From Ridgeia piscesae (Eukaryota > Annelida > Polychaeta > Sabellida > Siboglinidae): DNA of 64,000 bases. Made by a program: the position numbers and the translations under genes. This document shows, in pieces, positions 38,008 to 64,000 of the stretch. Numbering within the stretch: position 1 is the stretch's first letter; each line of letters opens with the position of its first letter. A model generated the notes under the pieces. That model was not told the origin of the DNA. It was given only the letters and a program-made list of their open reading frames with translations, and made no database searches. The stretch lies in NCBI GenBank assembly GCA_025642075.2, contig JAODUO010000126.1:174501-238500 (forward strand). Reading direction: 5' to 3'.

Positions 38008-39929
38008 AGGTGTGTGCACTTGTGCCTGGTTATGTATGTATATTTATGCACGCATGTGTGTATGTATGTGGCATTTTCGTGGCCGTCCGAACACACAAAC
38101 CGAAGTACATACAACAATAGCATACACACATAACACAACTGACAGAAACCACAACAGGTGATAAAACATACATTTTCCATGTGATCAGCCTTTGTTATTA
38201 CCAGAAGATGTATGCTGTCAACTGCTACATATCGTACCCACCCCTACACCTACCATGTGAACCATGTGTGGGAGCATCTCAGCCAGGGAGCAGCCAAGGT
38301 GCTTCTTTGGATTCAAACCTGCAAGATGTGACAGCGTCTTCAATAGGAAATTATTAACTGTTATTTTAATGAGGTCCAGTAATCACTAGACACACAACAT
38401 AGTATCCTTGGTAATATGGGCTGGTGTATTTTACTTTGAACGGCTGGGTTGGGTAATATTTCAGTTTTCTCTCTACCTTGAGATATATAGAGGAGGTACG
38501 GAACAGACAACTGTGTCATTTTGCATAAATCATGCCCATATATGACTAACATTCCTTTACCACCTGTATGCACATAAATGTGTTATGTCAAGAGTATATT
38601 GTCAAAGAGCAATGCATTATGGTTGGTATCTGTTCTCACATTCAGTTTCTGTGACTAGCAAGGCGAAGGTTTCTCACCGAGTGCTGCCACTTTGACAATA
38701 ATGGCCTGCAGATGGCACTGTATCATTTCGTCGAGCAGCTCACGTTGGTCTCGTCGCCACAAATACGCAAGAGGAGTAAGGCCGAGACGGAGACAACTGA
38801 AGAACACATTTGACAAGTAAATTGATGTAGACAGCGGTGGGTGATGAAGTTATTGTTTAATACCGTGAATAGATTTTAACAGAAATAAATTGCAACGTAT
38901 AACAGTTCACTGAAATTACCCAAACCTAATCAATGAATGTTACAAAGCAACAGGTAATCAGTTATTACTAATAAAAAAAATTCAATAATTAGTTAAGATT
39001 GTTATGTTAACAAGTCCCTCACTCAGACTTAAACACATTTTGGTAATGGTCTGGTATATTCTGAGGTTGAGCATATGCTGTGGGGGGGTAACTCACACAT
39101 TTTCCACCCTGACCCTCTGGTAGTCCGACAGTATGGCGCCCACTGACACAGCCTCAATGTCTGTGCCCCTCTGCAACAACAACACGGGGCAATTTGAACA
39201 TGTGCTTCAGCAGATAATCTAAACATCTCCAGATCTCCTGCTAACACATCTCCAATGTGCAATTTGCTAGTAGTATTAAATACTTGGTAACGACAGCTGT
39301 TTGGCAGAAATCGGAGCAACAAAGTTTCCAAATGGATGCCCTCATTGTGGAGTAAATGACAGGTCAGGTCACCTGGCATGGAATTATTAGAACACACACT
39401 TGTTTTGTTGGTTACCGATACCAATTCAATGACCATATCTTGTCAAGGAATGTTAATCTAAGAAAATGTGTCCATCAATATTTCCTAAAAGAATAGCACC
39501 AGTAGACAGTCATATTAATTTTTCAATAGATCAGTCTTGATTAACAACTTTAAATAGTGTCAAGTTTATGATAATCCACATACTTCAACTGTCATGATAC
39601 CATGTTGACCTTTACCCCTCAGGTGCCATGCTGACCTTGACCTTCCAACATACACTCACCTTGACCTCCTTCAGGAGTTCATACAGGTCCTCCACTTCGT
39701 CCCTGCAAGTTTCGCTGTAGTTACTGCCCTGCTCAATGGGGGAGCCACTTATGATGTGCCGGTACAATGGTAGTGACATCGCATCAGCGTACAGCCCAAT
39801 GGCATGATGACCAACCGTCTGGTACATGTAACTGTCCAGCTCATCTGTGTGCAGTCACGTTTTCTTTTGGTTACAGGGTGAAAATGAAATTATTTTATTC
39901 CACACTGGAAGTCTGTGTATACAACTATG

Positions 39930-39984
<55 letters not shown>

Positions 39985-43431: not shown

Positions 43432-44008
43432 ATGTCTTGGTTGTCGGGTCTGGCCGGAAAGGCTGAGGAGCTACTTAATAAAGTAGACCAAAGTGCAGCG
43501 ACTGCTTTGAATTCGAATGAGGACTCAGAGTCACAGTCGGCTGTGCCAACCATCGTAACACACACAGATACGCCACAATTTAATGATGCTAGCAAACTGT
43601 CATCGACGACGTTTTCCCAAAACTGGTCACCGTCATCACAGGTGCAGGAGACAATGTCATACTCGGGTAGCGTGCCGGCAAATCTAAATCGCATATCCGC
43701 CACAGGACGTTCAAAGTTGAACAGTAAACCAGTTGTGGCGCCGCCACCGGTTGCGGTGACACCCACACCACCAGCTGCAGCAAAGAATGGCAAGAAAAAG
43801 GACATGGACGCTGATGAACTGTTCGAGTTCCTGAACAGTTCAAGTACAAATGAGTCTCCAGCAGCGGGACGAAAGAGGCTGCAAACACCGCCAGGAAGCA
43901 AACATTCCAGACAGTCCAGTGCTTCATCCACGACTTCAAGGAAGAGTAGTCGCACGCCAGACCCACCAGGGAACAATGGAAGCTCAGACACTGTGGACGA
44001 TGTTTCAG
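43432..44008 (+). CDS. GOLGA5: GOLGA5 first coding exon
   Basis: 577 nt from ATG 43432 (context CACAATGTC), ending in phase 1 at TTTCAG/GTATGT. It encodes the conserved N-terminus, a Ser/Thr/Pro-rich disordered region and DADELFEFLNSS, which matches human DDELLFDFLNSS. Translation past 44008 is intron. Confidence 0.96.
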
Positions 44009-47000
44009 GTATGTTTATATTTTTGTTATTTGTGCAGCTGTGTGCAAGATGCATATATATTCATTCTATGCTGAACCAAAATCCAAACTCAGCTGTTATA
44101 TTTTGGCAAAGGTTCTTTTTAAATATCAAGAGAATTTGATATTATCACAAAGTATGTTTACATAGTTATTAAGTATGAAATTAATTTACAACTTGTTAAC
44201 AAACTTTGTAAACATTATTTCTTTGGTGTCCTTTATTCAGAGAATTTAGAACCGTGATTAGCTGACATGTGTGTTGTAGGCTTTGAACCCAGTGTCACAC
44301 CAGATCAGTCAACAAATGATGTCACAGTCAATAACGACTTGTCGAGTGGTTACCATAGTAACCATGAGGACAGTGGTGCCACCATGCAGCAGCAGCAGTT
44401 GTCATCCCTTGAGTTGGAGAATCAGTTGTTGAAGAACGAAGTTGCTTCTCTTAACCAGGAGATGTCGTCTATCATACAGCGCGCCAAGAGTGCACAAGAC
44501 GGTGTGTTGTGATTGGCTGTCTTGAGGGTGGGTGGGTGGAAGGAAATGGAAGGGTGTGATTGGTGGTAAAAAACTCAAATATAGTGGATGTTGGCCCCCA
44601 AAATGTATAGGATTAGGAGACCGGTGTCTTCCCCAATGTACATGGGTATATGAAAACAGACATTTGTTCAAGTGTGTATGTATTGCTGGAAATTATATGC
44701 ATTTTCATGTAAATACTGCAGAAAGAGTAGGACTTAAATGCAGTATAATACTCAAAGAAAGTAAATTTGACATTGTAAATTAGAAATCAAAACATCAACT
44801 GAAATTAATATTATCATAAAATGCCAAAAAATACTGTTAATATCGTGCTAAACCAGGTTACATAACAGTGATGATCTGAATCAATTTGATTTGAATCGCC
44901 AACCCCTTGCGGAAGTTGTCACAAGAACTGTCCTTGCTGCAGCGATGCTGAAGATGCAGCGGCAGGCGGAGCTGCACCAGTCACAGCTGTCCCGCAGTGA
45001 CCAGGTGGTCAGGGAACTACAGTCCAAGGAGAGCGACTGGCAGGAGGCACTCCGAGCGAAGGACTCGCAACTCGCCGTACTTAGAGTCAGGTTCGATGAG
45101 GTCGACAAGGAACTACGTGCGAAGCAGTCAATGATCGACTCCGTCCAAGCGGAGAGGGACAGGTGAGTCGTCATGGTAATGGATTGTGGATGTCTGCTGA
45201 TTTGACCTCGACAGATTCCATGATGGCGGTTTGTTATAAGGTGTTCAGCTTTTAATTGTGTATTTATTAGTTCAGAGTTTGAAAATGCCAGTTGTTGATG
45301 TTTGCGTCTATGAGATAGTCTTATTTGTTTAGTTTAGTTGTGATTCTCTTATACCATGACAACAGACAACACAGCTGACTACTGTCAAGCTAGCTTACAT
45401 GTACAATGTATGGCTTTTCCAATAGATAATTGGCATATGACTGTTTTACTACTTCTGAGATAAAACTATGTTCCTTGGTGTATTGTACACAACATTATAA
45501 ATGTACCCATGAAATTGTGCTAATAATGCATCTTCAGCTTTATATTGTCATGTTATGTTACAATTTTAATCACATGATTGTCATGTGACAGGATCCTGTC
45601 AGATCACACTTCTGTGAGTGGAGTACAGAGTCAGGCCCTGGATTCCATCAAGGAGAAATTGAATGATGCAGAAATGTTCCTTCAACATGAGAAGCAGTCT
45701 CGTGCTCGATTTGAGGTAGATCATATATTTAGAACAGAGATTCCTGCCTTTCCGGGGTGGAATCATCTCACTGCCTGTGTAGATATATGACTGTGCAATC
45801 AGAAAACTTGAGATAGTGTGCAGTTGAACAGGTCTGATATAAAGCGCTCTCAAAAAATAACAAGAGGCAATTGTTTGGATCCGTGCATCTACAAGTATTA
45901 ACAAAACGTAACTGTTTACAACTACAATTACAAATGTTATACCAGTAATTTAGTTGAAAAACCTTTTTGAGTTTAAAAAAATTCAAGTCGCATGGACAAT
46001 GTCATCAGGGCTTTATGCAGGATAAAATTATTGCCAGTCACACGTGTTTTGGTGGGCACATGGATGTTAACTGTTAAGCCGGTTTACAAACTTTTAAATG
46101 TGTCTGATGGCCATGATGTCACACATGTGACACCATTTTCACTCACTTTCAAGGCATAACTAACAATATCTATGGTTTTGGAAGACTTTTTTGCTCCTTT
46201 AGTTTTTTACCCGTCCACCACCCAGCCCACCCATATTTCTACCCATCCATATTCATTTTTACCCATCCAAATGACGGGTGGACGGGTCTCTACATAAAGC
46301 TATGAATGTCATTGTCATGGAGGGACTGATATCACACGTTCCTATTCTCACCCATCAGCCAGTCACCTACATGGGAATACTAGTCTAGGTCTAGATGCCC
46401 AGTTAATCCATACATTTTGGTCAACAGTTTTGTTATCATTTGTTCTCAGCTTATTATATCATTTTCTATTACATCATTTATATATTTGTGAGATGCTTAT
46501 ATCCACAGTTCTATAGCTAGTATTGCACAGCTAGTAAAGTACGATCGTACAATTTGCTTTGTCTCGATATCATGTAAGACTGATGTCTGACTTAATAGCA
46601 ACATCAAAATCCAGACTTGTGGACTATGCTGAATAAACACGTAGAACTATGGCTACATTTTGGTATGAGAACGAGACGTTTTTAGACGTGTGAAATGAAT
46701 GTTTCAGCAAGAAGTACAGGAGCGCCAGAGTCGACTGGAGCAAGAGAAGCACACAATGGCCGAGGCACTGTCAGCCGCACAGCGCAAGGTCAACGAAGAG
46801 AAAGGTAGTGCGGCTGAGATGTAAACAACACACATTTCATGAACGTATCGTCAACAGCACTCCTATAATTAATTTTGTTAAGAAATATTCACAGTTTTGC
46901 ATGTCAAAATGTACTAATTTTGGTACCTTCCATTATTTTGTGTCTATTGATCTGATTATGATCAACATTTATTCACCATTAAGCAGGACAGATGTGTAGT

Positions 47001-50000
47001 ATTTAGGGCCTTAACATATATCCTGCAGGTATCATCAATGCCTGTTCATCAGTTTATTACCATTGTTTTAAATGTTCTTAATACAATACATATTTTGAAG
47101 GCATCTACTATCTACTACTGTGTTTAATAATCCCATAAAAAAATTCAAATTTTATTTATGTCTAGAAAAAATCAACTAAGTTATTCCACATGGAGGAAGA
47201 ACCGTAGATGTTGCATGAAATAAAATAATCTAAAAACAAAGTGACTCACACAGACAGTGACAAATGGCATTTCTACAGTGGCTTGTCTATTATTTTTCAT
47301 TGAAGCCGTTTCAGTTTACAGATGGTCACATTTACAAGCTTCCATTTCTTCAGTTGGAGATAGCTGTTGTAATCGAACTAACTGTGTTGTCGATCTTATT
47401 CACATTGAAGAGATAACGTTCCTTTAACTAACAGTTGACAATTTAGTGCTAAAACATATTTACAATACGTAACCCATGTAGTATTCGTATTTGCGGGTGT
47501 TGCTTCTATCACACTTGATTCTCTCAGGTCGATGCACAGAACTGAGTGCCCAGCTGAGGTCATGTAAGGGCCATGCGGACGCTGCCCGCCAGGAACTGAC
47601 TGAGTACAAGGAGAAGGCGACTAGGATCCTACAGGTACCAGTCCTCTCACACCACCGCCCTCTTGCTGTGTGTTTGTGTAGAAACAGGTTAAAGGACATT
47701 CAGTTTGTAAGCAATTTGGCAATTGACATGGCTGTAATATTGTAAATGTTTACATTTTAATTACGCATTAAACAGTGAATAGGGGATATAATGTAAACTA
47801 TAATTACGGACATATAATTGTGAACCTGGTATATAATATAAGTGATGTCATGCTTCTGTTATAAGTCCCCTACAACTTAGGAATAACCCTTTAATAAGAA
47901 GAGACTATTACCAATACACAAGAGTTGTTGACTGTTTATAATTTTCGATTCTCATGCAATTCTTAGTGGGCGAACATAGTGTAATATATGTCAAGAGTTT
48001 CATATTTTATAAATGTCATTTCACCAACACTTTCTTGAGCATTTTATATGGTCTCTAAGCACTTGACAACATGTGACATAATTGTGTGTTGTTGCCAACA
48101 TGTGACAATTCTGTGTTGTTGCCAACATGTGACATAATTATGTGTTGTTGCCAACATGTGACAATTCTGTGTTGTTGCCAACATGTGACATAATTGTGTG
48201 TTGTTGCCAACATGTGACATAATTCTGTGTTGTTGCCAACATGTCATAATTTGTCGTGCCAACATGTAATTTGTGTTGTTGCCAACATGTCACTAATTCT
48301 GTGTGTTGCCAACATGTCATATAATTTGTGTTGTTGCCATGTCTACTGTGTTTTGCCAACATGCACATAATCTTTTTAAATGTGACATACTATTTCTGTG
48401 TTGTTGCCAACATGTGACATAATTCTGTGTTGTTGCCAACATGTCACATAATTCTGTGTTGTTGCCAACATGTCACATAATTCTGTGTTGTTGCCAACAT
48501 GTCACATAATTCTGTGTTGTTGCCAACATGTCACATAATTCTGTGTTGTTGCCAACATGTCACATAATTCTGTGTTGTTGCCAACATGTCACATAATTCT
48601 GTGTTGTTGCCAACATGTGACATAATTCTGTGTTGTTGCCAACACGTCACATAATTCTGTGTTGTTGCCAACATGTCACATAATTCTGTGTTGTTGCCAA
48701 CATGTCACATAATTCTGTGTTGTTGCCAACATGTCACATAATTCTGTGTTGTTGCCAACATGTCACATAATTTGTGTTGTTGCCAACACGTCACATAATT
48801 CTGTGTTGTTGCCAACATGTCACATAATTCTGTGTTATTGCCAACATGTCACATAATTCAGTGTTGTTGTCTTCAGTCAAAGGACCGGCTGATTGCGAGC
48901 CTGAAAGAAGGGGTGTCAGGAGGGGGTAGTGAGGTTGCAGTGTCACCAGCTGAGCTGGATGATGTGAGGCAGGAACGTGACATCCTGCGTGAAGAACTAC
49001 AACAGAGTCGCATGACCATCGAGAACCTACGCATTGAACTACAGGTAATCCTTTTGGCCTGGGAAGTGAAAACTCCTGCAAGAGGAAATAGAAAACTTGT
49101 CAACGACTCAAAGTGGCAGTACTTGATGAAATGAGAGTTGCGTAACTTGCCACCTAAACAATTCATTGTCAAGGTGGAGAGATATTAGATGTATATTACT
49201 AAAGAACATATCTTTAAAGACAAATGTCGTAATAAAACCGGTACAGTGGTAATACTTTCTGTACTTTTACCTGCTACTCATAGATCAGTGACAAGCTGTG
49301 CTAACATTCCGTTTGCGACCAAAGTAATCCCACCAGGGCCAGAGGATGACATTTGTAAAACCTGTAAATCCTCGCACCACCTTATTAGGCCCACTAGCAA
49401 ACCTATGAAGTGACTGCCCTGTATGTGTGAAACTGATGGCGATTGGACAGTTATCAGACAATATATGAATGCATAATGCGAACTAATGTCAAACTTGGCA
49501 TAAATTGTTTAATTCTACATGTTTTGTCTCATCATCTGGCAAATGACATTACGGTCTAGGCGATGTTACTGACCTGTCCAAATCCCACTATCTGTCCGAT
49601 GACCGTCACATTGACCCTAACATTCCTCAATGTTGTTGTGAAGGATCTGGAGAGTCAGCTACAACAGGACAGTGATGCTGCCCAGGAGGAGGCCCGGGCT
49701 CTCGAGGAGCAGTTGTCTGGGGAGAAACAGAGGAGGGAGGACGCCGAACAGGAGCTCGCTCGACACAAACAGGTTGGTCGGTTTGTGTGAGTGCATTGGA
49801 CGCAAGACAAACACATACTTTACCTTTTTATCAAAATAATTACCCATTTGACCATTTTCACGAGCTGCTGAGAGTATTATGTATTACTAAGTGTACTTCC
49901 CAAAACACAGGAACCTGCGTCTAGCAATATTATTGACTGATGTTATAAATAGGTATGTTCTTATATAGCGTAGTACCCCATCATTAGATTTGCTTGAAGT

Positions 50001-53000
50001 ACTTTATATTTTACACTTTACACTCTGGCAAACCTGTTAAATCAAATGGCATCTGCAGAGTTTTGTAAAGCAGTATTCCAGGGGATACCTGAGACTTACA
50101 TAATGAGCAGCACCCTTGGATAACTCAGTCTAATAGTAGTTTTATGTGGTCCTGCACATTTGTGATGAGTACAGATGTTGCGGGGCATGAAGGCAGATGG
50201 TAATGGTGAAGGTAGTTTTGGACACATTGACTTATTGGCGTGATGGTTGACTCGCAGGAGCTACGCTACGCACACGAGGAGCTGCTCAAACAGAAGACAG
50301 CACTGCAGGGTCGACTACAGGACCGCGACAGTGAGATAGAGCGACTTAGGAACCAGGTACTGTTACCTATCTCATGAGGATACAGCGTATTGCATGTTCA
50401 CAGAGTAGTTAATGTTCACAGAGTGGCTAATGTTCACAGAGTGGCTAATGTTCACAGAGTGGTTAATGTTCACACAGAGTGGTTAATGTTCACACAAAGT
50501 GGTTAATGTTCACACAAAGTGGTTAATGTTCACAGAGTGGTTAATGTTCACACAAAGTGGTTAATGTTCACAGAGTGGTTAATGTTTACACAAAGTGGTT
50601 AATGTTCACAGAGTGGTTAATGTCATCACAAAGAGTGGTTAATGTTCACGAGTGGTTAATGTTCACACAGTGGTTAATGCTCACACAGAGTGGTTAATAT
50701 TCACACAGAGTTGTTAATATTCACAGAGTGGTTAATGTTCACACAGTGGTTAATGCTCACACAGAGTGGTTAATGTTCACACAGAGTTGTTAATGTTCAC
50801 AGAGTGGTTAATGTTCACAGAGTGATGAACTGGTTTATTAAAGTAGCTTAAGTTTGCATGTATGACACTTACATGGCTTGAAGCAATTTTTGAAATTATA
50901 TGTGGTGTTGTACATCATAAGCTGGCTTAAAATTAAGCTAGCATATATGTTACTAAACACACGATGACAGTCCACAATGTTTCAGTTCGCAAAATGGTTT
51001 GTGTGATTTTTGCAAAATGTTTACAATTTACGCAACTCGAATTATCATGTTTAAAAAAACGACTGTTTTTCAGATTAATTCAGTTGCACTTCAGAACAAG
51101 CAATACAAAACACCTGGCAATTTGTTTAACGATCAAACTAAATTTTCAAATAAATGTGTTGCATTGATGCCAGTATTAGTTCCACTTATGAACAGCCAAG
51201 GTTGTGTTTTGCAGCTGACCACAAAGAGTATGAGCAGCAGTAGCCAGGTGGAGCTGGAGAATCGTCTCCACTCGCTGACGGAAAGTCTCATACAGAAGCA
51301 GACGATGCTCGAGGCACTGAGCACTGAGAAGAACTCTCTCGTGTTACAGTTGGAGAGACTCGAGGTAGGACACGACATTAGTGGAGAGACTCGAGGTAGG
51401 ACACGACATTAGTGGAGAGACTCGAGGTATGACACAACATTAGTGGAGAGACTCGAGGTAGGACACAACATTAGTGGAGAGACTCGAGGTAGGACACGAC
51501 ATTAATGGAGAGACTCGAGGTAGGACACAACATTAGTGGAGAGATCCGAGGTAGAACACGACATTAGTGGAGAGACTCGAGGTAGGACACAACATTAGTG
51601 GAGAGACTCGAGGTAGGACACGACATTAGTGGAGAGACTCAAGGTAGGACACGACATTAGTGGAGAGACTCAAGGTAGGACACAACATTAGTGGAGAGAC
51701 TCGAGGTAGGACACAACATTAGTGGAGAGACTCGAGGTAGGACACGACATTAGTGGAGAGACTCAAGGTAGGACACGACATTAGTGGAGAGACTCAAGGT
51801 AGGACACACATTAGTGGAGAGACTCAAGGTAGGACACAACATTAGTGGAGAGACTCGAGGTAGGACACAACATTAGTAGAGAGACCCGAGGTAGGACACA
51901 ACATTAGTGGAGAGACTCGAGGTAGGACACGACATTAGTGGAGAGACTCGAGGTAGGACACGACATTAGTGGAGAGACTCGAGGTAGGACACAACATTAG
52001 TGGAGAGACTCGAGGTAGGACACAACATTAGTAGAGAGACCCGAGGTAGGACACAACATTAGTGGAGAGACTCGAGGTAGGACACGACATTAGTGGAGAG
52101 ACTCGAGGTAGGACACGACATTAGTGGAGAGACTCGAGGTAGGACACGACATTAGTGGAGAGACTCGAGGTAGGACACAACATTAGTGGAGAGACTCGAG
52201 GTAGGACACAACATTAGTGGAGAGACTCGAGGTAGGACACAACATTAGTGGAGAGACTCGAGGTAGGACACGACATTAGTGGAGAGACTCGAGGTAGGAC
52301 ACAACATTAGTGGAGAGACTCGAGGTAGGACACAACATTAGTGGAGAGACTCGAGGTAGGACACAACATTAGTGGAGAGACTCGAGGTAGGACACAACAT
52401 TAGTGGAGAGACTCGAGGTAGGACACAACATTAGTGGAGAGACTCGAGGTAGGACACAACATTAGTGGAGAGACTCGAGGTAGGACACAACATTAGTGGA
52501 GAGACTCGAGGTAGGACACAACATTAGTGGAGAGACTCGAGGTAGGACAAACATTAGTGGAGAGACTCGAGGTAGGACACAACATTAGTGGAGAGACTCG
52601 AGGTAGGACACAACATTAGTGGAGAGACTCGAGGTAGGACACAACATTAGTGGAGAGACTCGAGGTAGGACACAACATTAGTGGAGAGACTCGAGGTAGG
52701 ACACAACATTAGTGGAGAGACTCGAGGTAGGACACAACATTAGTGGAGAGACTCGAGGTAGGACACAACATTAGTGGAGAGATCCGAGGTAGAACACGAC
52801 ATTAGTGGAGAGACTCGAGGTAGGACACAACATTAGTGGAGAGACTCGAGGTAGGACACAACATTAGTGGAGAGACTCGAGGTAGGACACAACATTAGTG
52901 GAGAGACTCGAGGTAGGACACAACATTAGTGGAGAGACTCGAGGTAGGACACAACATTAGTGGAGAGACTCGAGGTAGGACACGACATTAGTGAGAGACT

Positions 53001-56000
53001 CGAGGTAGGACACAACATTAGTGGAGAGACTCGAGGTAGGACACAACATTAGTGGAGAGACTCGAGGTAGGACACAACATTAGTGGAGAGACTCGAGGTA
53101 GGACACAACATTAGTAGAGAGACCCGAGGTAGGACACAACATTAGTGGAGAGACTCGAGGTAGGACACAACATTAGTGGAGAGACTCGAGGTAGGACACA
53201 ACATTAGTGGAGAGACTCGAGGTAGGACACAACATTAGTGGAGAGATCCGAGGTAGAACACGACATTAGTGGAGAGACTCGAGGTAGGACACGACATTAG
53301 TGGAGAGACTCGAGGTAGGACACAACATTAGTGGAGAGACTCGAGGTAGGACACAACATTAGTAGAGAGACCCGAGGTAGGACACAACAGTAGTGGAGAG
53401 ACTCGAGGTAGGACACGACATTAGTGGAGAGACTCGAGGTAGGACACGACATTAGTGGAGAGACTCAAGGTAGGACACAACATTAGTGGAGAGACTCAAG
53501 GTAGGACACGACATTAGTGGAGAGACTCAAGGTAGGACACAACATTAGTGGAGAGACTCGAGGTAGGACACGACATTAGTGGAGAGACTCAAGGTAGGAC
53601 ACGACATTAGTGGAGAGACTCAAGGTAGGACACAACAGTAGTGGAGAGACTCGAGGTAGGACACGACATTAGTGGAGAGACTCGAGGTAGGACACGACAT
53701 TAGTGGAGAGACTCAAGGTAGGACACGACATTAGTGGAGAGACTCAAGGTAGGACACAACATTAGTGGAGAGACTCAAGGTAGGACACGACATTAGTGGA
53801 GAGACTCAAGGTAGGACACAACATTAGTGGAGAGACTCGAGGTAGGACACGACATTAGTGGAGAGACTCGAGGTAGGACACGACATTAGTGGAGAGACTC
53901 AAGGTAGGACACGACATTAGTGGAGAGACTCAAGGTAGGACACGACATTAGTGGAGAGACTCGAGGTAGGACACAACATTAGTGGAGAGACTCGAGGTAG
54001 GACACAACATTAGTAGAGAGACCCGAGGTAGGACACAACATTAGTGGAGAGACTCAAGGTAGGACACAACATTAGTGGAGAGACTCGAGGTAGGACACGA
54101 CATTAATGGAGAGACTCGAGGTAGGACACAACATTAGTAGAGAGACTCGAGGTAGGACACAACATTAGTGGAGAGACTCGAGGTAGGACACAACATTAGT
54201 GGAGAGACTCAAGGTAGGACACAACATTAGTGGAGAGACTCGAGGTAGGACACAACATTAGTGGAGAGACTCGAGGTAGGACACGACATTAGTGGAGAGA
54301 CTCGAGGTAGGACACGACATTAGTGGAGAGACTCAAGGTAGGACACGACATTAGTGGAGAGACTCAAGGTAGGACACACATTAGTGGAGAGACTCGAGGT
54401 AGGACACGACATTAGTGGAGAGACTCGAGGTAGGACACAACATTAGTGGAGAGACTCAAGGTAGGACACGACATTAGTGGAGAGACTCGAGGTAGGACAC
54501 GACATTAGTGGAGAGACTCGAGGTAGGACACGACATTAGTGGAGAGACTCGAGGTAGGACACAACATTAGTGGAGAGACTCGAGGTAGGACACACATTAG
54601 TGGAGAGACTCGAGGTAGGACCCCGAACATTAGTGGAGAGACTCGAGGTAGGACACGACATTAGTGGAGAGACTCGAGGTAGGACACAACATTACTGGAG
54701 AGACTAGAGGTAGGACACAACATTAGTGGAGAAACTCAACGTAGGACACAATGTTAAGTAGAGGAACTTGACGTAGGACACAATGTTAAGTGGAGGAACT
54801 TAACGTAGTACACAATGTTAAGTGGAGAGACTTGATGTAGGACACAATGTTAAGTGGAGAAACTTGACGTAGGACACAATGTTAAGTGGAGAGACTTGAT
54901 GTAGGACACAATGTTAAGTGGAGAGACTTGACGTAGGACACAATGTTAAGTGGAGAAACTTGACGTAGGACACAATGTTAAGTGGAGGAACTTAACGTAG
55001 TACACAATGTTAAGTGGAGAGACTTGACGTAGGACACAATGTTAAGTGGAGAGACTTGACATAGGACACAATGTTATGTGGAGAGACTTGACATAGGACA
55101 CAGTGTAAACTGGAGAGACTTGACGTAGAAAACGAGGTTTTTTAAGTGGAGAGACTTGAGGTAGGAGGCAATGGTAAGTGGCAGACTCGACGTAGAACTT
55201 GAATTTACATGGAGAGACATCATTATTAAGTAACACAGTTATGTAAAACAGGAAATTGACATGTGCTGCCACCTGTTGTAGAAGCAGTATCGGGAATCGG
55301 AGGCAGCGGCCGTGCGGGCAAGTGCTGTCGCAGTCAATGTGAATGATGACGACGAGGGTAAGTCAGCGAACATGTGTCTCGGTTGAAATGTTGCTAGTCC
55401 AAGTTGTTGTCATACGTCTGAGGCATCTAATTCAGTTTGGGGTCGTGTTTGATGTTACAAAAGTGTGGACAATAGTTAACATCACTCTACTATGTAGGTC
55501 AGCTGTGAAACTTAGTCTTGTAGTGAAGTTGGTGTATATACCTGGTGGTTACCTTCTTTACATACAGTGTAACATTGTTACCCTATCCAGATTAACAAGT
55601 CATTATTCCAGATAAACAAATCGTGCATTCGACAGAGAATATTCTGGATTCCTTGGTTTCGGTCAAACAACATAGTACCATTGTAGCAAAGCTATAAATA
55701 ACCATCACCTGGTTTTTGCTTACGATGTGCATATCAATTTCTTCATAATTCGTTTCAGTATATCTTGATAAAACAGTTGTAGAATGATATCATTAATGAC
55801 GTTTGTGTTTGGTTTCCAGTGCGACAACGCATGCCAGGATTCATGCGCGTCACACCTCAAGATAGCAACGTGGCTCGCAAAGTGAAGAAAGCTGCCTACA
55901 ACATCGACAGATTCAGGTGACAGTCACATTCCTTAGGGACAGTCTCAAAACTACACAAGTACCGTGTAATTTAAACTTAGGTCTTTTGCACTATATGAAA

Positions 56001-59000
56001 CTTTGTATCAGTGTATTCTGCATATATAATATATTGAATTAATCAGTCATAATAATAGTTTTTAATATTTATTGTTGTATCTTACATTGCTGTTAGCTTA
56101 TTAATCAATTTTATTAATAATTTATCATTTTGTTTGGTCTAGTAATTTACTATGGATAAGTTTAGGTTTTACATATTTTTAGAAGCTCTATTTTTATATA
56201 TTTATAATTTATTTTATTTAGTTATCATTATTATTTACATATTTTACATATTTTATGTGAAGTGTGTACAGTGTAAGCTTAATTTATTGCATACATTTTA
56301 TTAATTATATTTTACCAATGTTGTATTTTATGTGCTTGGAGCAGAATCATATACCAGATATATGATGCCTTATAAATACAATTATTAATTAATATCATGT
56401 CACTTGTTGCCTAGCAACATGTCCCTCAAGACTTCACTGTCCTGGGTTTTTTCTGCAGGAAGACAACATGCTAAATAATAAATCAATTATAAAGAAAAAA
56501 ATTGACTTAAGAACCCTTAAGAATGGTAGTGAAATGGTGTATATTTATTATTTAAAGAAGTCGTGCTGTGCTGATTTAAACTGTGACCTGTTTATTTCAG
56601 CATTCGACTTGGAGTGTTTCTACGGAGATATCCAATAGCTCGCATCTTTGTCATAATCTACATGGTGAGTGTGTGATGTGGCACAGTTACCCTGTGTACC
56701 CTCCTGTGTACCCTCCTGTGTACCCTCCTGTGTACCCTCCTGTGTACCTCCTGTGTACCTCCTGTTTACCTCCTGTGTACCCTCCTGTGTACCCTCCTGT
56801 GTACCTCCTGTGTACCTCCTGTGTACCTCCTTAAACCCCCCCCGTGTACCCCCCTTTTACCCCCCCTGTGTACCCTCCCCGTGTACCCCCCCCTTTTACC
56901 CTCCTGTGTACCTCCTGTGTACCCTCCCCGTGTTCCCTCCTTTTACCCCCCTTTTGTACCCTCCTGTGTACCCTCCTGTGTACCCTCCTGTGTACCCTCC
57001 TGTGTTCCCTCCTGTGTACCCTCCTGTGTACCCTCCTTTTACCTCCTGTGTACCCTCCTGTGTACCCCCGTGTACCTCCTGTGTACCTCCCGTGTACCTC
57101 CTGTGTCCCCCCCTGTGTCCTCCCCGTTTTCCCCCCTGTGTACCCTCCTGTGTTCCCCGTGTACCTCCTTGTACCTCCTTTTACCCCCCTGTGTACCTCC
57201 TGTGTACCCTCCTGTGTACCTCTTGTACCCCCCCTGTGCCCTCCTTTTACCTCCCTTTTACCTCCTTTTCCTCCTTTTACCTCCTGTGTACCTCCTGTGT
57301 ACCCTCCTTTTTCCCCCGGTACCTCCTGGTACCCCCTGTGTACCCTCCTGTGTACCCTCCTGTGTACCCCCCTGTGTACCTCCTGTGTACCCTCCTGTGT
57401 CCCCCCTGTGCCCTCCCGTGCCCCCCTGTGTACCCTCCTGGTCCTCCTGTGTACCTCCTGTGTACCTCCGTGCCTCCTTTTACCCCTTTTCCCCTGTGCC
57501 CCCTGTGTCCTCCTGTGTACCCTCCTGTGTACCTCCTGTGTACCTCCTGTGTACCCTCCTGTGTACCCCCTGTGTACCTCCTGTGTACCCTCCTGTGTAC
57601 CTCCTGTGTACCTCCTGTGTACCCTCCTGTGTACCCTCCTGTGTACCTCCTGTGTACCTCCTGTGTACCCCCTGTGTACCTCCTGTGTACCTCCTGTGTA
57701 CCCCCTGTGTACCTCCTGTGTACCTCCTGTGTACCTCCTGTGTACCTCCTGTGTCCTCCTGTGTCCTCCTGTTTCCCCCTGTGTTCCTTTATTTTGCCCC
57801 TTTTACCCCCTGTGTACCCCCTGTGTACCTCCCTTTTCCTCCTGTGTACCTCCTGTGTCCTCCTGTGTTTTCCTCCTGTGTACCCTCCTGTGCCTCCTGT
57901 GTTTTTTCCTCCTTTTACCTCCCCGTGTACCTCCCCGTGTACCTCCTGTGTACCTCCCGTGTCCCCCTGTGTACCCCCCTGTGTCCTCCTGTGTACCCCC
58001 TGTGTACCTCCTTTTACCCCCCTGTGTCCTCCTGTGTACCTCCTGTGTACCTCCTTTTACCCCTTTCCCCTGTGTACCTCCTTTATTTGTACCTCCTTTT
58101 ACCTCCTTGTACCTCCTGTGTACCCCCCTGTGTTTCCCCCCCCGTGTACCTCCTGTGTACCCTCCTGTGTACCCTCCTGTGTACCCTCCTGTGTACCCCC
58201 TGGTACCTCCTGCGTACCTCCTGCGTACCTCCTGTGTACCTCCTGTGTACCCTCCCGTGTACCCTCCCGTGTACCCTCCCGTGTACCTCCCGTGTACCTC
58301 CTGTGTACCTCCTGTGTACCTCCTGTGTACCTCCTGTGTACCTCCTGTGTACCCTCCTGTGTACCTCCTGTGTACCTCCTGTGTCCCTCCGGTTTACCCT
58401 CCCTGTGCCTCCTGTGGCCCCTGTGTACCCTCCTTTGTACCCCCCCTGTGTACCTCCTGTGTACCTCCTGTGTCCCCCCTGTGTACCTCCTGTGTACCTC
58501 CTGTGTACCCCCTGTGTACCTCCTGTGTACCCCCTGTGTACCCCCTGTGTACCCCCTGTGTACCTCCTGTTTTACCTCCTGTGTACCTCCTGTGTACCTC
58601 CTGTGTACCTCCTGTGTCCCTCCTGTGTACCCTCCTGTGTACCTCCTGTGTACCTCCTGTGTACCTCCTGTGTACCTCCTGTGTACCCCCTGTGTACCTC
58701 CTGTGTACCTCCTGTGTACCCCCTGTGTACCTCCTGTGTACCTCCTGTGTACCCCCTGTGTACCTCCTGTGTACCTCCCCGTGTACCCCCCTGTGTACCC
58801 TCCTTTTACCCCCCGTGTACCCTCCTGTGTACCCCCTGTGTCCCCGTGTACCCCCCTGTGTCCCCCCTGTGTACCCCCTGTGTACCCCCTTTTCCTCCTG
58901 TGTCCTCCTGTGACCTCCTGTGGCCTCCTTGTACCCCCTGTGTACCCCCTGTGTAAACCCCCTGTGTACCTCCTGTGTACCCCCTGTGTACCTCCCGTGC

Positions 59001-62000
59001 CTCCTTTTACCTCCTTTTCCCCCCTTTTGTACCCCCTTGTACCCTCCTGTGTACCCTCCTGTGTACCTCCTGTGTACCCTCCTGTGTACCCCCCCTGTGT
59101 CCCCCCTGTGTACCCCCCTTTTACCCCCCTGTGTACCTTCCCGTGTACCCCCCTGGTACCCCCTGTGTACCCTCCTGTGTACCCTCCTGTTCCCCTCCTG
59201 TGTACCCTCCTGTGTACCTCCTGTGTACCCTCCTGTGGGTTTTACCTCCTGTGTACCCTCCTTTTACCTCCTGTGTACCCTCCTGTGTACCTCCTGTGTA
59301 CCTCCTGTGTACCTCCTGTGTACCTCCTGTGCCTCCTGTGTACCCTCCTGTGTACCCTCCTGTGTACCCTCCTGTGTACCTCATGTGTACCCTCCTGTGT
59401 ACCCTCCTGTGTACCTCCTGTGTACCTCCTGTGCCCTCCTTTATTGGGCCCTCCTGTGTACCTCCTGTGTAACCTCCTGTGTACCTCCTGTGTCCTCCCT
59501 GTGTACCTCCTGTGTACCTCCTGTGTACCCTCCTGTGTACCCTCCTGTGTACCTCCTGTGTACCTCCTGTGTACCCTCCTGTGTACCCTCCTGTGTACCC
59601 TCCTGTGTACCTCCTGTGTCCCTCCTGTGTCCCCCCTGTGTACCCCCCTGGCCTCCTGTGCCCCCTGCGTCCTCCTGGTACCTCCTTTTACCTCCTGTGT
59701 ACCTCCCCGTGTACCCCCCTTTTACCCCCCTGTGTCCTCCTGTGTACCCCCCCTGTGTCCTCCTGTGTACCTCCTGTGTACCTCCTGTGTACCTCCTGTG
59801 TACCCCCCTGTGTACCTCCCCGTGTACCTCCCCGTGTACCTCCTGTGTACCTCCTTTTACCCCCTGTTTTACCTCCTGTGTACCCTCCTGTGTACCTCCT
59901 GTGTACCTCCTGTGTACCCCCTGTGTCCCTCCTGTGTACCTCCTTTTGTACCTCCTGTGTACCCTCCTGTGTACCCTCCTTTTACCTCCTGTTCCTCCTG
60001 TGTACCTCCTGTGTACCTCCTGTGTCCTCCTGTGTACCTCCTTGTCCTCCTGTGCCTCCTGTCCTCCTGTGCCCCCCCGTGTACCCCCTGTGTACCCCCT
60101 GTGTACCTCCCTTTTACCTCCTGTGTACCTCCTTTTACCCTGTGTACCCCCCTTTTACCTCCTGTGTACCTCCTGTGTACCTCCTGTGTACCTCCTGTGT
60201 ACCTCCTGTGTACCTCCTGTGTACCCCCCTTTTACCTCCTTTTACCCCCTGTGTACCCCCCTTTTCCTCCTGTGTACCTCCTGTGTACCTCCCCGTGTAC
60301 CCCCCTGTGTACCCCCCTTTTTGTACCCCCCTGTGTCCTCCTGTGTACCCCCTTTTACCTCCTGTGTACCTCCTGTTTACCTCCTGTGTACCTCCTGTGT
60401 ACCCTCCTGTGACCCCCCTCCTGGTACCTCCCTGCGTACCTCCTGTGTACCTCCTGTGTACCTCCTGTGTACCTCCTGTGTTCCTCCTTTTACCCCCCTG
60501 TGTACCCCCTTTTACCCCCTGTGTTTCCTCCCTGTGTACCTCCTGTGCCCCCTGTGTACCCCCTGTGTACCCCCTGTGTACCTCCCCGTGTCCTCCTGTG
60601 TACCTCCTGTGTACCCCCCTGTGTACCCCCCCGTGTACCCTCCCGTGTACCTCCCGTGTACCTCCCGTGTACCTCCTGTGTACCTCCTGTGTTTCCTCCC
60701 GTGTCCTCCTGTGTACCTCCTTTTACCCTCCCTTTTACCTCCCCGTTAAACCCCCTGTGTACCCCCTGTGTACCTTCCTGTGTACCTCCTGTGTACCTCC
60801 GGGACCTCCTGTGTACCTCCTGTGTACCTCCTGTGTACCTCCTGTGTACCTCCTGTGTACCTCCTGTGTACCTCCTGTGTACCTCCTGTGTACCTCCTGT
60901 GTACCCCCCTGTGTACCTGTGTACCCTCCTGTGTACCCTCCTGTGTACCTCCTGTGTACCTCCTGTGTACCCCCCCCGTGTACCCCCCTGTGTACCTCCT
61001 GTGTACCTCCTGTGTACCTCCTTTTGTACCTCCTTTTACCTCCCTTTTCCTCCCGTGTACCTCCTGTGTTTTGCCTCCTGTGTACCCCCCCTGTGTACCC
61101 CCTGTGTACCCCCTGTGTACCCCCTGTTTACCCCCTTTTACCTCCCGTGTACCTCCTGTGCCCTCCCTTGTACCTCCTGTTTACCTCCCGTGCCCTTGGC
61201 CTCCTGTGTACCTCCCCGTGTACCTCCTTTTACCTCCTGTGTCCTCCTTTTTTTCCTCCTTTTACCTCCTGTGCCCCCTGTGTACCCCCCCGTTTTTCCC
61301 CCCTTTATTTTGTACCCCCTGTGTCCCCTGTGTACCCCCCTTTGTACCTCCTGTGTACCTCCTGTGTACCTCCTTGTACCTCCTTTTCCCCCTTTTTTTA
61401 TTTTCCCGTGTACCTTCCCGTGTACCTCCTGTGTACCCTCCTTTTACCCCCCTGTGACCCCCCTGTGTCCTCCTGTGTACCCCCCCTGGTCCTCCTGTGT
61501 ACCTCCTGTGTACCTCCTTTTTGTACCCCCTGTGTACCCCCTGTGTACCCCCTGTGTACCTCCCTTTTTACCCCTTTCCCGTGTACCTCCTTGTACCTCC
61601 TGTGTACCTCCTGTGCCTCCCGTGTACCTCCTGTTTTACCTCCTGTGTACCCCCCCTTGTACCTCCTGTGTACCTCCCGTGTACCCTCCCGTGTACCCCT
61701 CCCCCCGTACCTCCGTTCCTCCTGTGCCTCCTGTGCCTCCTGTGCCTCCTGTGCCCCCCTGTGCCCCCGTGTACCTCCTGTGTACCCCCCCGTGTACCTC
61801 CTGTGTACCTCCTGTGGGACCCTCCTGTGTACCCTCCTGTGTCCTCCTGTGTATTTGCCCCCTGTGCCTCCTGTGTACCTCCCCGTGCCTCCTTTTGTAC
61901 CTCCTTTTACCTCCTGTGTACCCCCTGTGTACCCCCGTGTACCCCCTGTGTACCCCCCCGTGTACCTCCTTTTACCTCCTGTGTACCTCCTTGTACCCCC

Positions 62001-64000
62001 TGTGTACCTCCTTTGTACCTCCTGTGTACCCTCCTTTTACCTCCTGTGTAACCTCCTGTGACCTCCCCCGTGTCCCCTTGCCTCCTTTTCCCCCCTGTGC
62101 CCCCCGTGTTTTCCTTTGAAACCCCCTGTGTACCCCTGTGACCCCCTTTTGTACCTCCTGTGCCTCCCGTTTCCCTCCTGTGTACCCTCCTGTTACCCCC
62201 TGTGTCCCTCCTGTTTCCCCCCGTGTACCTCCTGTGCCCCCCTGTGTACCCCCTGTGCCTCCCGTGTACCTCCTGTGTACCTCCTTTTACCTCCTGTGTA
62301 CCCTCCCTTTTACCTCCCTTTTACCCCCTTTTACCCCCCTGTGGACCCTCCTGTGTACCTCCTTTTACCCCCCTGTGCCTCCTGTGTACCTCCTGTGTAC
62401 CTCCTGTGTACCTCCTTTTACCTCCTTTTACCTCCTTTTACCCCCCTGCCCTCCTGTTTTACCTCCTGTGCCCTCCTTTTACCTCCTTTTGTACCCCCTG
62501 TGTTCCCCCCTTTTACCCTCCCGTGTACCTCCTGTGTCCCCTGTGCCTCCTTTGTCCTCCTGTGTACCTCCTGTGTACCTCCTGTGTACCTCCTTTTACC
62601 CCTGTTAACCTCCTGTGTACCTCCTGTGTACCTCCTGTGTACCTCCTGTGTACCTCCTTGTGTACCCCCCTGTGTACCCCCTGTGTACCTCCTGTGTACC
62701 TCCTGTGTACCTCCTGTGTACCTCCTGTGTACCTCCTGTGTACCCTCCTGTGTCCCTCCTGTGTACCTCCTGTGTACCTCCTGTGTACCCTCCTGTGTAC
62801 CTCCTGTGTACCCCCTGTGTACCCCCCGACCTCCTGTGTACCTCCTGTGTCCCTCCTGTGTACCCTCCTGTGTACCCTCCTGTGTACCTCCTGTTACCCC
62901 CCTGTGTACCCCCTGTGTTTTCCTTCCCGTGTACCTCCTGTGTACCCCCCTGTGTACCCTTCCTTGTCCCCTGTGTACCCCTGTGGGGCCCCCTGTGCCT
63001 CCTGTGCCCTCCTGTGTACCCTCCTGTGTACCCCCTGTGTCCCCTTTTCCTCATGTCCCCCCTGTGTACCCCCCCGGGGATTTTCCTTTTGTACCCCCGT
63101 GTACCCCCTGTGTACCTCCTGTGTACCTCCTGTGTACCCCCCTGTGTACCCCTGTGTACCCCCTGTTTTTACCCCCTGTGTACCCCCTGTGGTTACCCCC
63201 CCTGTGTACCTCCTGTGTACCCCTTTTACCCCCTGTGTACCTCCTGTGTTTTCCTCCTGTGTACCTCCTGTGTTTCCTCCTGTGTACCCCCCCTTTTACC
63301 CCCTTTTACCTCCCCGTGTACCTCCTTTAACCCCCTGTGTACCCCCCTGTGTACCCTCCTTTTCCTCCTGTGTACCTCCTGTGTACCTCCTGTGTACCTC
63401 CTGTGTACCCTCCTGTGTACCTCCTGTGTACCTCCTGTGTACCTCCTGTGTACCTCCTGTGTACCTCCTGTGTACCCCCTGTGTACCTCCTGTGTACCCC
63501 CTGTGTCCTCCTGTGCCCCCTGTGTACCTCCTGTGCCTCCCCGTGTACCTCCTGTGTCCTCCCTGTGTACCTCCTGTTTTACCCCCTTTTACCCCCCTGT
63601 GTACCCTCCTGTGTACCTCCTGTGTACCCTCCTGTGTACCCCCTGTGTACCTCCTGTGTACCTCCTGTGTACCTCCTGTGTACCTCCTGTGTACCCTCCT
63701 GTGTACCTCCTGTGTACCCTCCTGTGTACCCTCCTGTGTACCTCCTGTGTACCTCCTGTGTACCTCCTGTGTACCTCCTGTGTACCCTCCTGTGTACCCT
63801 CCTGTGTACCCTCCTGTGTACCCCCTGTGTCCCTCCTGTGTACCCTCCTGTGTACCTCCTGGTACCTCCTGTGTACCTCCTGTGTACCTCCTGTGTACCC
63901 TCCTGTGTACCTCCTGTGTACCTCCTGTGTACCTCCTGTGTACCTCCTGTGTACCCCCTGTGTACCTCCTGTGTACCCCCTGTGTACCCTCCTGTGTACC
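43432..64000 (+). CDS. GOLGA5: Golgin-84 (GOLGA5), lacking only the last exon
   Basis: Golgi membrane coiled-coil tether acting in cis-Golgi/intra-Golgi transport and ribbon structure; in vertebrates a Rab1 partner. Coding exons: 43432-44008, 44280-44501, 44943-45162, 45592-45715, 46708-46804, 47528-47634, 48877-49044, 49644-49772, 50258-50356, 51215-51364, 55282-55357, 55820-55916, 56601-56664. They sum to 2130 nt, 710 codons, with all phases consistent. The N-terminus MSWLSGLAGKAEELLNKVDQ matches human MSWFVDLAGKAEDLLNRVDQ. Residues about 1-240 are low-complexity and Ser/Pro-rich, 240-630 are heptad-rich coiled coil, and the end RRYPIARIFVIIYM begins the C-terminal membrane anchor. The final exon (about 20-30 residues in vertebrates) must lie beyond 64000, past the satellite. 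The total would be near the 731 residues of the human protein. Four introns carry minisatellites touching a splice site. Confidence 0.95.
44280..44501 (+). CDS. GOLGA5: GOLGA5 exon (start of coiled coil)
   Basis: Phase 1 to phase 1, 222 nt. The end LELENQLLKNEVASLNQEMS matches human LRLENQLLRNEVQSLNQEM. Confidence 0.95.
44502..44942 (+). other. GOLGA5 intron
   Basis: 441 nt, nothing recognised. Confidence 0.75.
44943..45162 (+). CDS. GOLGA5: GOLGA5 exon (AKDSQLAVL coiled coil)
   Basis: Phase 1 start after TTGCTGCAG, phase 2 end (GACAG/GTGAGT), 220 nt. It includes LRAKDSQLAVLRVRFDEVDK, matching human VAAKDSQLAVLKVRL. The start follows from phase and homology; an ATG-based start at 44891 is intronic. 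Confidence 0.92.
45163..45591 (+). other. GOLGA5 intron
   Basis: 429 nt, nothing recognised. Confidence 0.75.
45592..45715 (+). CDS. GOLGA5: GOLGA5 coiled-coil exon
   Basis: Phase 2 to phase 0, 124 nt. It encodes ILSDHTSVSGVQSQALDSIK then EKLNDAEMFLQHEKQSRARF-E. It aligns with human LQNQALQTFQERLHEADATL. Confidence 0.93.
45716..46707 (+). other. GOLGA5 intron
   Basis: 992 nt, nothing recognised with confidence. Confidence 0.7.
46708..46804 (+). CDS. GOLGA5: GOLGA5 coiled-coil exon
   Basis: Phase 0 to phase 1, 97 nt. It encodes QEVQERQSRLEQEKHTMAEA then LSAAQRKVNEEK. Confidence 0.93.
46805..47527 (+). other. GOLGA5 intron
   Basis: 723 nt, nothing recognised. Confidence 0.75.
47528..47634 (+). 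CDS. GOLGA5: GOLGA5 coiled-coil exon (YKEKATRILQ)
   Basis: Phase 1 to phase 0, 107 nt. It ends AARQELTEYKEKATRILQ, matching human SKQELIDYKQKATRILQ. Confidence 0.95.
47635..48876 (+). other. GOLGA5 intron with 29-bp minisatellite
   Basis: 1.24 kb. The first 430 nt are unremarkable; the rest is the minisatellite that runs up to the acceptor. Confidence 0.85.
48062..48866. repeat. 29-bp minisatellite abutting the 3' splice site
   Basis: About 27 units of TGTTGTTGCCAACATGT plus CACATAATTC, very regular from 48400 to 48860 and degenerate at the left end. The last unit runs into TGTTGTTGTCTTCAG, so the array supplies sequence immediately upstream of the acceptor at 48875-48876. Left-end units have GTGACATAATT where later ones have GTCACATAATT. 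Confidence 0.96.
48877..49044 (+). CDS. GOLGA5: GOLGA5 coiled-coil exon (SKDRLIASLKEG)
   Basis: Phase 0 to phase 0, 168 nt. It starts SKDRLIASLKEG, matching human SKEKLINSLKEG, and ends SRMTIENLRIELQ. Confidence 0.95.
49045..49643 (+). other. GOLGA5 intron
   Basis: 599 nt, nothing recognised. Confidence 0.75.
49644..49772 (+). CDS. GOLGA5: GOLGA5 coiled-coil exon
   Basis: Phase 0 to phase 0, 129 nt. It encodes DLESQLQQDSDAAQEEARAL then EEQLSGEKQRREDAEQELAR-HKQ. Confidence 0.93.
49773..50257 (+). other. GOLGA5 intron
   Basis: 485 nt. A stretch at about 49955-50050 (TATATAGCGTAGTA...CTGGCAAACCTGTT) weakly resembles the SINE tail seen at 20040. Nothing else. Confidence 0.6.
50258..50356 (+). 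CDS. GOLGA5: GOLGA5 coiled-coil exon
   Basis: Phase 0 to phase 0, 99 nt. It encodes ELRYAHEELLKQKTALQGRL then QDRDSEIERLRNQ, matching human LQSRIKDRDEEIQKLRNQ. Confidence 0.95.
50357..51214 (+). other. GOLGA5 intron with GTGGTTAATGTTCACA minisatellite
   Basis: 858 nt. The array occupies most of the first half; the second half is AT-rich unique sequence. Confidence 0.85.
50395..50822. repeat. 18-22 bp minisatellite just after a 5' splice site
   Basis: About 22 imperfect units of GTGGTTAATGTTCACAGA with CACACAGA and CACACAAA length variants. It begins about 38 nt after the donor at 50357. Confidence 0.95.
51215..51364 (+). CDS. GOLGA5: GOLGA5 exon (most conserved coiled-coil block)
   Basis: Phase 0 to phase 0, 150 nt. 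It includes SQVELENRLHSLTESLIQKQ then TMLEALSTEKNSLVLQLERL-E, nearly identical to human. The donor CTCGAG/GTAGGA is the first of the repeated donors described next. Frame continuation past 51364 meets TAG within two repeat units. Confidence 0.97.
51351..55200. repeat. 31-bp minisatellite made of exon end plus 5' splice site
   Basis: Head-to-tail 31-nt units, each containing TGGAGAGACTCGAG (the last 14 nt of the exon) followed by GTAGGACAC (the start of the intron) and AACATTAG. It starts at the real boundary (exon end 51364) and stays very regular to about 54730, on the order of 110 units. A diverged block with ATGTTAAGTGGAGAGACTTG in units of about 32 nt follows, to about 55200. Variant units (CTCAAG, CCCGAG, GATCCGAGGTAGAACACG) recur at intervals, which suggests block duplication inside the array. 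Confidence 0.97.
55282..55357 (+). CDS. GOLGA5: GOLGA5 exon
   Basis: Phase 0 to phase 1, 76 nt, acceptor CTGTTGTAG just after the array. It encodes KQYRESEAAAVRASAVAVNV then NDDDE. Confidence 0.88.
55358..55819 (+). other. GOLGA5 intron
   Basis: 462 nt, nothing recognised. The open frame 55343-55615 is exon plus intron read through. Confidence 0.75.
55820..55916 (+). CDS. GOLGA5: GOLGA5 exon (KVKKAAYNIDRFS)
   Basis: Phase 1 to phase 2, 97 nt. It encodes RQRMPGFMRVTPQDSNVARK then VKKAAYNIDRF, matching human KVRKAASSIDQFS. Confidence 0.94.
55917..56600 (+). other. GOLGA5 intron
   Basis: 684 nt, very AT-rich, nothing else. Confidence 0.75.
56601..56664 (+). CDS. GOLGA5: GOLGA5 exon (start of membrane anchor)
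   Basis: Phase 2 to phase 0, 64 nt, donor ACATG/GTGAGT. It encodes SIRLGVFLRRYPIARIFVII-YM, almost identical to human SIRLGIFLRRYPIARVFVII. The rest of the transmembrane segment is on the next exon, outside the window. Confidence 0.96.
56690..64000. repeat. Large 10-12 bp satellite (CCTCCTGTGTAC) filling the last GOLGA5 intron
   Basis: At least 7.3 kb of CTCCTGTGTAC (11 nt), CCTCCTGTGTAC (12 nt) and CCCTGTGTAC (10 nt) units mixed irregularly, starting 26 nt after the donor and running past the right edge. TTTTACC variants of TGTGTACC are common between 56830 and 63330 and rare at both ends. The plus strand has almost no stop codons, giving Pro/Val/Tyr/Leu/Cys/Thr open frames of up to 1247 codons in all three frames. 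These are not genes: no start context, no domain, and frames rotate between 11- and 12-nt units. Confidence 0.97.

Follow-up and report, generated by a model that had tools for sequence, protein, structure and literature searches.

How is one 5′ splice site chosen when the intron behind it offers more than one hundred others of nearly the same sequence? The question is raised by a stretch of 64,000 nucleotides (nt) from the deep-sea vestimentiferan tubeworm Ridgeia piscesae (GenBank assembly GCA_025642075.2, contig JAODUO010000126.1, positions 174,501 to 238,500 of the forward strand; this whole stretch is 'the window', and its numbering is used for all coordinates), in which intron 10 of the gene for golgin-84 (GOLGA5) consists almost entirely of tandem copies of its own 5′ splice site. 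Our reading, to which we assign a probability of roughly 0.8, is that the array is a near-neutral, expanded 'mirage' minisatellite in the sense in which that word is used for amphioxus genes, and that splicing is kept to the first, authentic donor (donor 1).

The golgin-84 gene has 12 exons in the window, on the plus strand from 43432 to 55916; joined, they give a translation of 688 amino acids with no stops that matches the Pfam profile Golgin_A5 with an E value of 5.5e-78, in agreement with the assignment to GOLGA5 in an earlier, preliminary description of this DNA. Exon 10 by itself matches positions 155-204 of the profile (E 4.5e-21). The translation is identical at 688 of 688 residues to the R. 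piscesae protein NP493_126g02011 (P0001 in our protein set); among the matches listed, the next-closest protein is from Lamellibrachia satsuma (90% over residues 420-688, the part searched). Because NP493_126g02011 extends past exon 12, at least one further intron lies downstream of that exon. The features that flank the array are as follows (a slash marks a splice junction, here and below):

51215..51364, plus strand: exon 10 of golgin-84, 150 nt, phase 0 at its start and end, identified by the Golgin_A5 match and the identity to NP493_126g02011
51365..51373, plus strand: the part of donor 1, the authentic 5′ splice site, that lies in the intron, CTCGAG/GTAGGACAC
55282..55357, plus strand: exon 11, with the acceptor TTGTAG/AAGCAG

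Intron 10 therefore spans 51365-55281, and the array fills everything in it except about 74 nt. Tandem Repeats Finder reports a repeat at 51351-55102 with a period of 31, 120.8 copies, 95% matches and a score of 6295; a manual split gives 124 unit-like copies and places the end of the array at about 55207. We divide these copies into three parts:

51351..54725, plus strand: main family, units 1-109 of about 31 nt, AG/GTA in each; unit 1 is the authentic junction
54726..55109, plus strand: diverged distal family, units 110-121, 12 copies of 32 nt
55110..55207, plus strand: degenerate tail, units 122-124, one of the three retaining GAG/GTAGGA

The unit is composed of the final 14 nt of exon 10 (TGGAGAGACTCGAG) and 17 nt of the intron; it straddles the exon-intron boundary and, at 31-32 nt, has the size of a minisatellite unit, as the units of mirages do. 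The preliminary description had counted about 110 copies, each reproducing the last 14 nt of the exon and the start of the intron; we count 109 units in the main family, and the composition is as described in unit 1, with the 14-mer exact in 76 of the other 108 main-family units and in none of the 15 units 110-124. A 14-nt match to the edge of an exon that recurs exactly in 76 more units is not a product of chance. Within the main family 103 units have exactly 31 nt, five have 30 and one has 33; they represent 18 sequence types with a mean ungapped pairwise identity of 0.94 (the base immediately before the shared 14-mer of unit 1 is different in the exon, and the consensus base was substituted for it in these counts). 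Divergence is greater in the distal family, where the mean identity is 0.90: CTTGAC/GT stands in place of CTCGAG/GT in five of its 12 units, with variants in the other seven, and AATGTT replaces AACATT in 11. The plus strand of the array has a purine fraction of 0.68, which could favour R-loops.

The exact copy number is that of a single assembly, and the true array might be much shorter or longer, or might have been created by mis-joined reads. According to the part of the source that we consulted, the printed R. piscesae assembly is a short-read assembly with a contig N50 of 10.42 kb (PMC9921365), and the 1-nt indels in the array (five 30-nt units, one 33-nt unit) could be sequencing noise. 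Against an artefact, the main family contains its 18 unit types and is followed by a distinct distal family, the 64 kb contain no N, and the window also holds other arrays that are hundreds to thousands of bases long. Because it contains no N and NP493_126g02011 lies on a 1.24-Mb record, the window probably comes from an assembly other than that of PMC9921365; we give an artefact little credence.

To compare the donors we used a weight matrix and, for pairing energies, a sequence of the U1 5′ end. AG/GT is retained in 109 of 109 main-family units versus 1 of the 15 units 110-124. The preliminary description went too far in placing GAG/GTAGGA in every unit: it is present in 84 of the 109 main-family units (85 of all 124), while 21 have AAG/GTAGGA and four differ otherwise (GAG/GTAGAA in three, GAG/GTATGA in one). 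In the distal family the G at −1 is gone in all 12 units; five read GAC/GTAGGA, and GT itself is gone in two. Among the 12 donors of the gene, donor 1 ranks fourth by score (7.67) and third by its pairing energy with the U1 5′ end (−9.3 kcal/mol); the AAG/GTAGGA variants score 8.42. The other 123 array sites include 84 that equal the score of donor 1, 21 that are higher and 18 that are lower, that is, 105 equal or exceed it, so the ladder of near-equal donors that had been described is borne out. Ten of the 12 distal-family sites score 0.07-4.39; the remaining two are those without GT. Structural masking of the array donors was considered and rejected: the median predicted accessibility for units 2-109 is 0.057, versus 0.0016-0.083 for the other donors of the gene, and with a second setting 0.014 versus 0.0003-0.012. 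When the 103 units with a length of exactly 31 nt are compared, three of nine positions within the donor are variable versus eight of 22 elsewhere; we see no special conservation of, or selection on, the array donors in this comparison, as expected for passengers.

What would follow if one of these donors were used? For every array site we built the spliced sequence from the coding exons that precede exon 10, exon 10 lengthened up to that site, and exons 11-12; the frame is open from donor 1 only (one of the 124 sites). Donor 2 gives a frameshift with a stop 93 nt beyond the end of exon 10, and all later donors encounter a single stop:

51410..51412, plus strand: in-frame TAG, 45 nt after the end of the exon, met at donors ≥3 (122 of the 124 sites)

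The remainder of 31 divided by three is 1, and the in-frame steps of three units are also closed by this TAG. The preliminary description had noted that 31 is not a multiple of three, that the extended frame reaches a TAG and that downstream donors would give frameshifted or truncated proteins; all of this holds, with premature stops from 123 of the 124 sites. Because at least one intron follows exon 12, transcripts made from donors 2-124 are expected targets of nonsense-mediated decay (NMD). The conserved product was examined by aligning NP493_126g02011 with 15 other golgin-84 proteins, whose sources range from annelids to a sea anemone and a bird and which were chosen from 120 listed of 588 found (the search scored only the 7987 candidates with the most shared words); in 16 of 16 there is no insertion between QLER and the residues of the next exon. 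These proteins are consistent with donor 1, and the alignment describes the conserved product, not the rate at which each donor is used.

The same observations invite the reading that the array is a ladder for unproductive splicing, in which the array donors are appreciably used and the yield of NMD targets, set by the copy number, tunes the output of golgin-84. Most array donors are at least as strong as donor 1 by score, predicted structure gives them no special masking, nearly all lead to premature stops, and the unit contains, upstream of its donor, a GGAGA purine motif that is a putative SRSF1-like element. However, the exons extended to downstream donors quickly far exceed 150 nt, the array donors have no signature of conservation, and the amphioxus mirages are said, in the portions of the literature that we consulted, to be spliced normally. 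We consider this reading unlikely; it is compatible with an origin as a mirage, so the confidences placed in the two overlap and are not exclusive. In its specific form as a copy-number rheostat, in which a fixed fraction of transcripts would use downstream donors and become NMD targets so that the length of the allele sets golgin-84 output, it is slightly less likely again.

Alternatively, the many U1 sites of the intron might form a platform that sequesters U1 or guards against premature polyadenylation; the protection of transcripts from premature polyadenylation by U1 is known as telescripting. Judged from one example per site type, the calculated pairing energy with the U1 5′ end lies between −9.2 and −9.3 kcal/mol for 105 of the 109 main-family sites. 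Yet AATAAA and ATTAAA are absent from intron 10, which leaves nothing obvious to protect, and a single intron of a single gene should provide a very small share of the nuclear sites that bind U1; depletion of nuclear U1 by one intron is unlikely, as is titration of U1 by this array. A U1 platform is in our judgment very improbable.

The unit can also be read as a 14-nt exon, TTAG/TGGAGAGACTCGAG/GTAGGA, that would be spliced recursively or as a micro-exon, and the main family contains 96 TTAG/TGG sites. Against this, the pyrimidine fraction before TTAG has a mean of 0.25 and a maximum of 0.38, versus 0.38-0.69 at the 11 predicted acceptors of the gene, so that the top array site equals the poorest real acceptor, and just three TRAY branch-like cores occur in 51365-54725. 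A recursive splice site, that is, a pyrimidine tract and a branch site before AG/GT, was not found (the tract directly before AG/GT was judged by eye). The probability of this reading is close to negligible.

We return to the near-neutral mirage. A 31-nt segment that spans the junction of exon 10 and intron 10 would have been tandemly duplicated, and later amplification would have raised the number of copies to about 109; the copy adjacent to the exon, held fixed by constraints on protein and splicing, may have seeded the young units, and the distal units would be an older layer that has drifted. The array would be nearly neutral as long as splicing stays at donor 1, which may be selected by exon definition (the exon has 150 nt, a 3′ splice site of its own and exon sequence upstream of the donor) and, being transcribed first, may have an advantage from the order of synthesis. 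Surplus U1 would be removed as the spliceosome is assembled; such removal is reportedly the subject of work by Hodson et al. in 2012, to go by its title. Misuse of array donors would give premature stops, and the errors would be cleared by NMD.

With respect to the history of the units, the main family contains no identical block of at least five units with at least three unit types (in shuffled unit orders the largest blocks have a mean of 4.4 and a maximum of 9); there is therefore no evidence for duplication of large blocks. The commonest variants (CTCGAG and CTCAAG; CACGAC and CACAAC) resemble changes from CpG to CpA. We do not press decay of CpG as an explanation: the observed/expected ratio of CpG is 0.71 in the main array and 0.71 in exons 1-9.

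Several points weigh against this reading. Donor strength fails to single out donor 1, since 21 sites score above it, and RNA structure does no better as the selector: donor 1 ranks 73 of 109 in predicted accessibility with 80-nt windows and 45 of 109 with 200-nt windows. As neither strength nor predicted accessibility marks donor 1, the selecting step is unproven. In classical experiments with duplicated donors the downstream site is reported to have been favoured often, which would predict misuse; this preference runs against the choice of donor 1, and the case is therefore worth testing. That donor 1 is the one chosen is deduced from the predicted protein NP493_126g02011 and the proteins of other species. 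Finally, the short-read assembly of PMC9921365 could very probably not have resolved such an array.

The selection of one 5′ splice site among equals is a question for the theory of splicing, and Ridgeia golgin-84 is a natural case of it: in a widely conserved gene, 105 of the 123 other array sites have scores at least as high as that of the authentic donor, and exactly one site yields the protein. If the mRNA is clean even when NMD is blocked, then position and exon definition can by themselves hold back over 100 competing sites; if it is not, NMD masks heavy waste. Were the rheostat true, the gene would titrate, in a natural setting, the choice between more than 100 equal donors. The locus also extends mirage minisatellites to an annelid and provides a readable example of an exon edge that seeds the growth of an intron.

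Three further introns of the gene contain arrays. The first is a different repeat from that of intron 10:

48063..48869, plus strand: intron 6 array, 29-nt unit, ending 7 nt before the acceptor of exon 7

Its consensus unit combines a branch-like core, TAAT, with a GU-rich tract, and a single AG (48860) precedes the acceptor AG; the array is a counterpart on the 3′ side to the donor array, but is wholly intronic. Exclusion of AG from this array was considered and is unconvincing, the unit itself being without AG and 12 of its 87 single changes creating one. In intron 9, an 18/38-nt array (50399-50819) starts 42 nt past the donor of exon 9. The proximity of these two arrays to exons, under uniform placement, has P values of 0.037 (intron 6) and 0.196 (intron 9), which is weak. 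An 11-nt CCTGTGTACCT-type array occupies 56691-64000 in the intron after exon 12 (at least 7.3 kb, continuing beyond the window) and leaves an open frame of 1247 codons on the plus strand. In introns 6 and 9 the exon-proximal half of the array is the more regular one, and for the 11-nt array of intron 12 this does not hold; with so few cases this lean proves nothing.

Elsewhere in the window, a 22-nt array (AGAAGGCTTTGCAAGAGGACAA) at 32100-32807 leaves both strands with open frames; these are 45 to 102 codons long, and some are rich in lysine and glutamate. Judged by eye, minus-strand open frames at 35492-36089 resemble a retrotransposon reverse transcriptase, and two minus-strand frames at 39612-40871, upstream of the golgin gene, are candidate exons of a DPH6-type diphthine ammonia ligase.

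How does the array compare with known systems? The original paper on the Adh3 mirages is said, in later papers, to be that of Canestro et al. 2002. In the portions of the amphioxus papers that we consulted, minisatellite-like duplications of exon/intron boundaries are described in globin genes and likewise in Adh3, where they were named 'mirages'; many but not all repeats have AG/GT, and the Adh3 data together with reverse transcription PCR of the globins suggest that splicing is undisturbed (PMC3087553). Mirages are listed there for Adh3, globin, TnC and PGBD5, again with splicing said to be undisturbed (PMC3087553, PMC3902484), and the unit sizes given are 10-72 base pairs (bp) in Adh3 and 150-160 bp in BflGb6. 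The Ridgeia array shares with these (Adh3; BflGb6 and BflGb9; TnC; PGBD5), as they are described in those portions, a unit that lies over an exon/intron boundary and AG/GT in many units; the amphioxus units are reported to be homogenized, with those at the edges of clusters excluded from homogenization, and the normal mRNA to be undisturbed. Unlike them, it is hosted by an annelid and has about 109 near-identical donors, versus three and six units in two BflGb6 haplotypes. In the literature searched, which leaves most subscription journals outside its coverage, we found no splice-site-spanning repeats in annelids, and mirage minisatellites under that name in amphioxus only.

Tandem duplication of AGGT as a route to intron gain is reportedly treated by Rogers 1989 and Zhuo et al. 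2007. As far as the consulted parts of the sources go, human segmental duplications contain repeats of about 30 bp with a mean of four copies, some at exon-intron boundaries (PMC2812944), and fission yeast has gained introns with 24-nt repeats (PMC3629103). These cases resemble ours as short tandem repeats at exon edges with splice signals; as described, they have few copies, and exons were altered or introns created, whereas in Ridgeia the exons on either side show no apparent change and almost the whole intron is array. In constructs with duplicated 5′ splice sites, several equal donors reportedly likewise compete and can bind U1 together; those, however, are laboratory constructs with few sites, and golgin-84 of Ridgeia is a natural gene with more than 100. 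As far as our literature searches reach, the Ridgeia array is thus a mirage-type minisatellite, a large one, in a new phylum.

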